A stretch of 39,048 bases of DNA from NCBI GenBank assembly GCA_947631175.1, contig CANRKI010000011.1:1-39048 (forward strand). The letters run 5' to 3'. Source of the DNA: an uncultured Flavobacterium sp. (GTDB lineage Bacteria; Bacteroidota; Bacteroidia; Flavobacteriales; Flavobacteriaceae). Positions 1 through 39,048 of the stretch are shown in pieces (within the stretch, counting starts at the first letter, position 1; each line of letters begins with the position of its first letter). Both the position numbers and the translations under genes were made by a program. The notes below the pieces were generated by a model that was not told where the DNA came from, did no database searches, and saw only the letters and a list, made by a program, of their open reading frames with translations.

Positions 1-22
1 TGTTAGATTTTGGAAGTTTTTA

Positions 23-110
23 GCATAAAAAAATATAGCGGATAGCCCGACCCGAGCTATCCGCTTTTTGTGTTTTTAAAAGGTTTTTTGTTGCGAGGGG
101 AACGCCCTGA
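23..110. repeat. Intergenic structured repeat, copy A (right part; left part lies outside the window or is absent)
   Basis: AGCGGATAGC(37-46)-CCGACCCGA-GCTATCCGCT(56-65) perfect 10-bp hairpin, followed by GCGAGGGGAACGCCC(93-107); nearly identical string at 6042-6110. Confidence 0.85.
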
Positions 111-182
111 TTTTGTATGGATTTACTTTTTATTGATGCGTATTAATTCTTACATTAGCGAGATATTAATGATAATTGATTT

Positions 183-4654: not shown

Positions 4655-5836
4655 ATGATTTATAAATTAATTACTTACAAAAAACTTTTTCTGCTACTTT
4701 TTTTTACTACGCTTTTACAAGCTCAAGTACCAAATTCGTTTTATTTAACCAAAGTAAATTTGGTATCTGCACAAAACATGAATCAAAACCTAAATACTTT
4801 TGAAAGTTTAGGTATAAAATCAGTTGGTACTACAGCCCAAGAAAACACCTATCAGTGGCTTAAAAATCAATACTTAAGTTATGGTTATACTGAAAGTGCT
4901 ATTAGAACCTTTACTTTTACTTACGCTTCGCAAACAAATAAAAATTTAGAAGTCACTAAAATAGGCAGTCGCTTTCCTGATACTTATGTTGTGGTTTGCG
5001 GACATTTTGATACTAAAAACGGTCCAGGAGTTAATGATAACGGAAGCGGAGTTGTATCAATTTTAGAAATTGCTCGCATTTTACAGCAAGTGAACACAGA
5101 TTACTCCGTTCGATTTATTAATTTTTCGGGAGAAGAAGATGGCCTATTAGGTAGTCAGAACTATGTGAATACAGTTGTAAATGCAACTTCGCCTAAAATG
5201 GATATTCGTGTGGTTTTAAACCTTGATGAAATTGGTGGTGTTGCCAATGCTGTTAATAATAAGGTAAATTGTGAGCGTGATTTATCGGCGCCTACAACTA
5301 ATAATGCGGCAAGTAATCAATTTACTCAAGATTTGATGCGTTATGTTTCGGCGTATTCAAATTTAACCCCAGTTTTGGCCCGTGCTTATGCATCGGATTA
5401 TATGCCTTTTCAGGCCAATAATGATGTGATTACTGGTTTGTTTGAGTTTAATGAATCTACGCATCCTCATTCGCCAACCGATGTTTTAGCAAATATGGAT
5501 CCTGCTTATCATTTTCAGGTAACCAAAGCTGCTACGGCTGCTGTTTTACATTTTGCGGTAGCAAATGAAAATTTAGGAGTTGAGTTGCCAACCGATAAAA
5601 ACTTAAAAGTTTACCCAAATCCTGCTAAGGGTAAGGTTTCGATTTTTGTAAACGACACTTCAGATTTGGTGGATGTGAATTTATTTGATTCGAACGGAAG
5701 ATTAATTATTGCGGATAAAATTACGGTACTAAATAATGAAGCTGATTTGTTGCTAGGTAATTTAAAAGCCGGTATTTATATGTTGACAATTATGTCGAAA
5801 ACTATTACTTATCAACAAAAGTTGTTTATAAACTAG
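4655..5836 (+). CDS. M28 family metallopeptidase with T9SS C-terminal sorting domain
   Basis: 'CGHFDTKNGPGVNDNGSGVVSILEIARIL', 'NFSGEEDGLLGSQNYV'; C-term 'LKVYPNPAKGKVSI...LKAGIYMLTI...KLFIN'. Confidence 0.88.
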   Translation: MIYKLITYKKLFLLLFFTTLLQAQVPNSFYLTKVNLVSAQNMNQNLNTFESLGIKSVGTTAQENTYQWLKNQYLSYGYTESAIRTFTFTYASQTNKNLEVTKIGSRFPDTYVVVCGHFDTKNGPGVNDNGSGVVSILEIARILQQVNTDYSVRFINFSGEEDGLLGSQNYVNTVVNATSPKMDIRVVLNLDEIGGVANAVNNKVNCERDLSAPTTNNAASNQFTQDLMRYVSAYSNLTPVLARAYASDYMPFQANNDVITGLFEFNESTHPHSPTDVLANMDPAYHFQVTKAATAAVLHFAVANENLGVELPTDKNLKVYPNPAKGKVSIFVNDTSDLVDVNLFDSNGRLIIADKITVLNNEADLLLGNLKAGIYMLTIMSKTITYQQKLFIN

Positions 5837-5926: not shown

Positions 5927-5942
5927 TTGTTTTACTGAATTT

Positions 5943-6110
5943 CGCGTTAGGGATAGAAGCGATATCCTTTTTATGTTTTTTAGAGGATTTTTTTTTATCT
6001 TTTCGTGTATTTGAGTTGATTTATTTTCATAAAAAGATAAAGCGGATAGCCCGACCCGAGCTATCCGCTTTTTATGTTTTTTGAGATTTTTTAATGCGAG
6101 GGTAACGCCC
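5943..6110. repeat. Intergenic structured repeat, copy B (most complete); right hairpin also likely a bidirectional terminator
   Basis: TATCCTTTTTATG (5963-5975) pairs with CATAAAAAGATA (6028-6039); AAAGCGGATAGC/GCTATCCGCTTT hairpin 6039-6071; GCGAGGGTAACGCCC 6096-6110; right half matches copy A. Confidence 0.85.
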
Positions 6111-6113
6111 TTA

Positions 6114-6758
6114 TTATTTTTCTCCGTCCCATTCGCTATAAAATTGCGATAGAAATTGGAGCATGAATTCGTGGCGTTCTTCGGCTATTTGCTTGGCTTG
6201 ATCTGTATTCATTCTGTTTTTTAACAGTAATAATTTTTCGTAAAAATGATTGATCGTGGTGCCATTGTGTTTTTTATATTCCTCCTTGGTCATGTTTAGT
6301 TTGGGTTCTAAACCTGGCAGGTGGATGGGATTGTTTTTATAGCCACCGTAGTTAAAAGTTCTGGCAATGCCGATGGCGCCAATGGCATCTAAACGGTCTG
6401 CATCTTGAACGATTTGTAGTTCGATTGAATTGAATTGTTGATTGAAATTGCCGCCTTTGAAGGAGATATTCGCAATTATTTTTACCACATGATCGATTGT
6501 TTCTGTAGCTATATTTTGTGTTTGTAAGAAATCACGTGCGATTTTTGGTCCAATGGTTTCGTCGCCATTGTTAAATTTACTGTCTGCAATGTCGTGCAAA
6601 AGTGCAGCTAGTTGAACAACAATAAGCTCGCATGGCGTGTTTTTAGCAATGTTTAGCGCATTGTTATATACACGTTGAATGTGATGAAAATCGTGTCCAG
6701 ACTCGGCATTTTCGAATGTTTTTTTTACGAAACTTATAGTGTTGTTTATTGTTGTCAT
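6114..6758 (-). CDS. HD domain phosphohydrolase
   Basis: 'ESGHDFHHIQRVYNNALNIA...VQLAALLHDIADSKF' HD motif, 'QDADRLDAIGAIGIART'. Confidence 0.88.
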   Translation of the reverse strand: MTTINNTISFVKKTFENAESGHDFHHIQRVYNNALNIAKNTPCELIVVQLAALLHDIADSKFNNGDETIGPKIARDFLQTQNIATETIDHVVKIIANISFKGGNFNQQFNSIELQIVQDADRLDAIGAIGIARTFNYGGYKNNPIHLPGLEPKLNMTKEEYKKHNGTTINHFYEKLLLLKNRMNTDQAKQIAEERHEFMLQFLSQFYSEWDGEK

Positions 6759-18663: not shown

Positions 18664-18704
18664 AATAAGGAGCATAAAATTAGTGCACCAAAATAAACCA
18701 AGTT

Positions 18705-18775
18705 CCCGCTTTTCGCTTTATCTTTTGTTTCATTACATTACACAAAAGGATACCGCTACAATCGGGGCTAAAAGC
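18705..18775 (-). repeat. Intergenic structured repeat, diverged copy C (reverse orientation)
   Basis: Reverse complement GCTTTTAGCCCCGATTGTAGCGGTATCCTTTTGTG...ACAAAAGATAAAGCGAAAAGCGGGA aligns to copy B TTAGGGATAGAAGCGATATCCTTTTTATG...CATAAAAAGATAAAGCGGATAGCCC. Confidence 0.7.
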
Positions 18776-38979: not shown

Positions 38980-39048
38980 TCCTCCTTAGCTCAGTTGGTT
39001 AGAGCATCTGACTGTTAATCAGAGGGTCCTTGGTTCGAGCCCAAGAGG
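38980..39048 (+). tRNA. tRNA-Asn (GTT), truncated by the window end
   Basis: Acceptor TCCTCCT, D-arm GCTCAGTTGGTTAGAGC, anticodon arm TCTGA-CTGTTAA-TCAGA (GTT at 39014-39016), T-arm CTTGG-TTCGAGC-CCAAG, then AGG of the 3' acceptor strand. Confidence 0.95.

Follow-up and report, generated by a model that had tools for sequence, protein, structure and literature searches.

The intergenic element at positions 5944-6110 of the window, the 39,048-nucleotide stretch of Flavobacterium DNA analysed here, was found to be a complete Flavo-1 repeat (Rfam RF01705) of type II and of a long subtype; it is referred to below as copy B. The explanation that accounts best for it, and that we regard as probable, is that Flavo-1 is a non-autonomous, probably mobile structured repeat, the long form of which would have been co-opted as a bidirectional terminator. 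A comparative-genomic study predicted Flavo-1 to be a probable non-cis-regulatory RNA of Bacteroidetes (Weinberg et al. 2010, PMC2864571), and Rfam has listed it since 2010 as an sRNA without a function. It is recast here as a mobile-like structured repeat, to which an outer helix and a third arm are added and, for one subtype, a testable role in bidirectional termination. What is new here is the architecture of the whole element, together with the evidence that the fold is kept on one strand, the pattern of presence and absence between species, and the terminator subtype.

Identity and Extent of Copy B

The covariance model of RF01705 matched copy B with 49.9 bits (5939-6060, plus strand; gathering cut-off 42), aligned to model positions 1-76 and with the P2 stem and its purine internal loops present. 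Copy B belongs to the Flavo-1 family and, since it scores above the gathering cut-off, the family is not new; the initial annotation had suggested a comparison with Rfam and had counted a match to a known family against its own reading. The predicted fold of copy B has an energy of -52.2 kcal/mol, compared with -33.0 ± 3.8 in shuffled sequences (z = -5.1). The sequence and coordinates given earlier for a pair of related repeats were correct: copies A (17-88) and B (6021-6092) form the top direct-repeat family of the window, with 72 nt at 85% identity and an identical hairpin core, followed downstream of the repeat core by GCGAGGGGAACGCCC in copy A and GCGAGGGTAACGCCC in copy B (6096-6110). The right end of copy B, ACGCCC, was set by comparing 42 copies and lies, as had also been noticed, 3 nt before the stop codon of the HD gene (6114-6116). 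No match to copy B was found in the plasmid and phage sequences searched. The features of the region are as follows.

4655..5836, plus strand: left neighbour, M28 peptidase with Por secretion tail, directed at copy B (Pfam PF04389, PF18962)
5944..5949, plus strand: P1 outer helix, 5' strand GCGTTA (covariation with the 3' strand, 44 copies)
5950..5967, plus strand: P2, the Flavo-1 arm, 5' strand GGGATAGAAGCGATATCC (Rfam alignment, pair counts)
6035..6052, plus strand: P2, the Flavo-1 arm, 3' strand, including AGCGGATAGCCC (Rfam alignment, pair counts)
6041..6069, unstranded: alternative hairpin AGCGGATAGC-CCGACCCGA-GCTATCCGCT (minus-strand terminator prediction, 15 pairs; covariation)
6055..6061, plus strand: P3, 5' strand CCCGAGC, with tandem G.A inside (read from sequence alone)
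6096..6102, plus strand: P3, 3' strand GCGAGGG (read from sequence alone)
6103..6108, plus strand: P1 outer helix, 3' strand TAACGC (covariation with the 5' strand, 44 copies)
6114..6758, minus strand: right neighbour, HD-domain protein, directed at copy B (Pfam PF01966)

Architecture and Strand of the Fold

Flavo-1 elements were found to have two end types, type I reading TTTTAGCCCCGATNG core ... GCGGGAA ... and type II reading GCGTTAGGGAT core AGCCCGACC ... AACGCCC. Type II elements measure 79-191 nt and have a sharp right end, ACGCCC|AAA. The Rfam model covers only P2 and short flanks, and P1 lies outside it. The two strands of P1 covary across 44 copies, none of 2000 shuffles doing as well, and its variants include GCGTT/AACGC, GCATT/AATGC, GTGTT/AACAC, GCGTG/CACGC, GCGTA/TACGC and GCGCG/CGCGC. 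Together with P2 and with P3, as read from the sequence, P1 is predicted to form a three-way junction. The left arm of copy B described in the initial annotation is present but longer than was thought, with GCGTTA (5944-5949) pairing with TAACGC (6103-6108), and the segment GGGAT...ATCC (5950-5967) pairs, in agreement with the Rfam model, with a stretch at about 6035-6052 that ends in AGCCC.

In ungapped apical P2 stems the wobble-type deviations on the Flavo-1 strand comprised 16 G.T against 1 A.C, all in different stems (p = 3e-4), and in apical P2 the plus strand is the better folder of the two. If a double-stranded palindrome were decaying, G.T and A.C should be equally frequent; the pair counts therefore indicate that the Flavo-1 fold is preserved on a single strand, either of RNA or of single-stranded DNA. 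The apical loops of many P2 arms hold a second recurrent palindrome resembling GGCTGAGGTTCTCGAAGCC, for example G000:C17:21830-21925 (L027) and C5:8333-8426 (L023), and one P2 loop contains a terminator-like hairpin, AAAAAAAGTCCCACTGGAGTTTAGTGGGACTTTTTTT; repeats may thus be nested inside repeats.

Dispersal across Genomes

The whole 2.86-Mb genome contains 111 Flavo-1 matches above the cut-off, whereas 10 were found in the closest relative detected (G195). Two complete relatives have 55 and 68 matches above the cut-off. Matches occur in 92 of 99 genomes of the genus and, across a sample of the order, in 17 of 72 genera. Genomes G018, G020, G058, G085 and G087, with a few others of the genus, have no match, while most genomes of the genus have dozens; patchy loss or a missing mobiliser may lie behind this.

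When flanks in this genome were compared with 1.59 Mb of G195, 18 elements had both sides matched, and 16 of these are missing from G195, leaving sites of the empty kind expected of miniature inverted-repeat transposable elements (MITEs); with G195 only about 79% identical, the 16 absences are unpolarised and may be gains or losses. The absence is clean at C97:5104. The two elements common to both genomes are C27:16878 and copy B, beside which the identity to G195 is 79%. Copy B is kept beside the HD gene in G195, with different sequence to its left; a tandem-like ACTCTTGCTTAAGAGTTG run lies directly left of the orthologue there (L194, 600-700). Inspection of the HD gene flanks in 28 other species revealed nothing resembling copy B. 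The exact hairpin core was encountered elsewhere in one Chryseobacterium contig only, in a scan that may omit close genomes; that contig (L251, 2648-2666) has the exact core ATAGCCCGACCCGAGCTAT without the terminator arm. Several long copies of this genome are nearly identical across a long stretch, which suggests recent amplification. The description of copy B as a dispersed structured element is borne out by more than 100 copies, a covarying three-arm structure and presence/absence between species.

Position at Gene Ends and the Long Subtype

Gene context, assigned with a simple ORF finder, was convergent for 49, tandem for 30 and divergent for 12 of 91 elements, against a convergent expectation from G195 of 14% of intergenic bases or 18% of intergenic regions. 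Elements of types I and II usually follow an independent terminator; between the right end of an ordinary type II copy and the stop codon that faces it there are typically 40-90 nt, which include the terminator of the facing gene.

The long subtype, in which T-rich sequence follows AGCGGATAGC-CCGACCCGA-GCTATCCGCT or a variant of it, has 17 copies here and 8 in the examined part of G195, copy B included. One misread copy, C9:9269, was left out. The first arm of this hairpin is part of the 3' strand of P2, and the hairpin and P2 are therefore mutually exclusive. Both helices nevertheless covary among 19 distinct long copies, with three pairs in each changed on both sides, although there are few compensatory changes, in about three columns per helix, and some of them may stem from template switching in palindromes. 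None of 500 shuffles reached the covariation score and slid controls were much lower, with 96.3% of P2 cells paired in long copies. In two columns a substitution in the shared strand (G to A in one, A to G in the other) is accompanied by the compensating substitution (C to T and T to C, respectively) in the P2 arm as well as in the hairpin arm; here a single strand covaries with two partners that exclude each other.

Copy B shows the GC-rich hairpin and T-tract at a gene end that are characteristic of a terminator: a terminator is predicted on the minus strand, and T-tracts flank the hairpin on both sides, TTTTT at 6069-6073 for the plus strand and ATCTTTTTAT for the minus strand. With thresholds picked after the data were seen, 15 of 19 long copies have their right end no more than 15 nt from the stop codon that faces them, compared with 6 of 23 copies of ordinary type II (p = 0.0016); the facing gene lacks a separate terminator in 16 of 19 versus 9 of 23 (p = 0.0045). 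Two sites that are occupied by long elements in this genome, C1:21290 and C1:18636, hold plain hairpin terminators with A- and T-tracts in G195, an exchange of plain terminators for repeats from one related species to another; the element at C1:18636 is not the sole terminator for both genes, as this genome has a further, separate one on the left side there. Copy B very probably serves as the terminator that the M28 peptidase and HD genes share. The view that it is more than a simple terminator was right for the element, but it dismissed termination too strongly for the long subtype to which copy B belongs.

Proposed Mechanism and Alternative Explanations

According to the favoured explanation, Flavo-1 would be a dispersed, non-autonomous repeat folding into a three-way junction and gathering at gene ends, mainly between convergent genes. 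Elements of the long subtype would be able to pair the 3' strand of P2 with sequence in the P3 loop instead, giving a strong hairpin with T-tracts on both sides, and in copy B this hairpin would end transcription of the peptidase from one side and of the HD gene from the other. The mobilising machinery would recognise the three-arm form, and mobility, not loss, would be behind the presence/absence differences. A bolder proposal, which we put forward tentatively as something short of probable, is that Flavo-1 elements are not RNA genes but a distinct kind of mobile element, a three-way junction that a machine acting in trans would move by reading its single-stranded fold, without duplicating the target site; one branch would have evolved a second, exclusive fold as a bidirectional host terminator. 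If this were true, one strand would be selected for two incompatible structures.

A passive dispersed repeat or genomic parasite without host function, its likeness to a terminator being a by-product of the palindrome, would suit types I and II, which usually have an independent terminator before them and need do nothing; the long copies, however, systematically adjoin the stop codons of genes that lack a separate terminator, and compensatory changes preserve their hairpin, so that we consider this explanation improbable. The Rfam classification (Gene; sRNA) and a one-strand structure that tolerates G.T pairs, as expected of RNA, would agree with a family of small RNA genes, copy B being one that makes a discrete RNA. 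This is rendered still more doubtful by a copy number above 100, with loops that diverge between copies, by the concentration of the copies at the 3' ends of genes, by their lineage-specific presence, and by the finding of no promoter scoring above chance near copy B. In addition, transcriptomics of F. psychrophilum gave no clue to Flavo-1 function and no consistent transcription of the matches, which lie sense, antisense and outside transcribed regions (PMC9723704). A regulated attenuator, in which P2 and the terminator hairpin would switch read-through on a signal, would make use of the two exclusive, covarying helices and of the two columns that covary with both partners, but is very unlikely, given that, by gene orientation, the elements lie downstream of genes and mostly between convergent ones rather than as leaders upstream of a common, recurrent set (12 of 91 are divergent), and that the hairpin is perfect and likely dominant.

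Candidate Mobilisers and Known Systems

Mobilisation of Flavo-1 by a RAYT/Y1 transposase was rejected: PF01797 is absent from this draft genome and from many Flavo-1-rich genomes of the genus, and Y1 shows no link with Flavo-1 copy number in the genus. Mobilisation by reverse transcriptase was likewise set aside, no PF00078 being detected in this draft genome. A DDE-type MITE was rejected because there is no target-site duplication, the mean direct repeat at 42 type II and long copies being 1.40 compared with 1.46 ± 0.23 in shuffled pairs. The labels REP and MITE proposed in the initial annotation fail on these same two counts, the lack of a Y1/REP transposase in the genome and of a target-site duplication. 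GCGTTAG resembles the core of an integron attC site, but this reading was rejected because the two core sites do not follow the attC order. A replication-strand bias is the expectation for single-strand transposition; none could be shown among G010, G036 and G195, where a trend in the best-scoring copies of G010 was lost with an origin placed from sampled GC skew.

With Flavo-1 as described in RF01705, copy B shares a score above the gathering cut-off, the P2 arm with purine-rich internal loops and the same clade, whereas the whole element also includes P1 and P3, has two end types and a long subtype with a terminator, and shows the behaviour of a dispersed repeat. REP/RAYT systems are similarly dispersed, structured, extragenic, free of target-site duplications and located at gene 3' ends, but the Flavo-1 host genome lacks a Y1 transposase and the Flavo-1 fold is larger and three-armed. 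MITEs are also short, non-coding and multi-copy, with complementary ends and sites that are empty in a relative, but Flavo-1 has no target-site duplication and its ends covary as a helix instead of forming a fixed terminal repeat. The DNA uptake sequence terminators of Neisseria and Pasteurellaceae (PMC1852404) offer another case of a genome-wide repeat supplying intrinsic terminator hairpins at gene ends; those are pairs of 9-11-nt uptake signals, whereas Flavo-1 is one larger element carrying the hairpin, an arm of which is shared with another helix.

Other Copies in the Window

Two further copies were located in the window.

17..115, plus strand: copy A, sister long-subtype element, right half only (repeat match, contig start, intact sister in L042)
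18698..18773, minus strand: third Flavo-1 copy, type I (RF01705, 71.4 bits)

Copy A goes undetected by the Rfam model and has no left arm because contig C11, at base 1 of which the window begins, starts within the element, and the intact sister in L042 continues through the sequence of copy A. Contigs C112, C170 and C202 also start or end in or near sister copies, and Flavo-1 repeats probably break the assembly. The region of the third copy is rearranged relative to G195, with 2756 nt between matched flanks here versus 95 nt there. At the other end of the window a tRNA gene (38980-39048) is truncated by the contig end.
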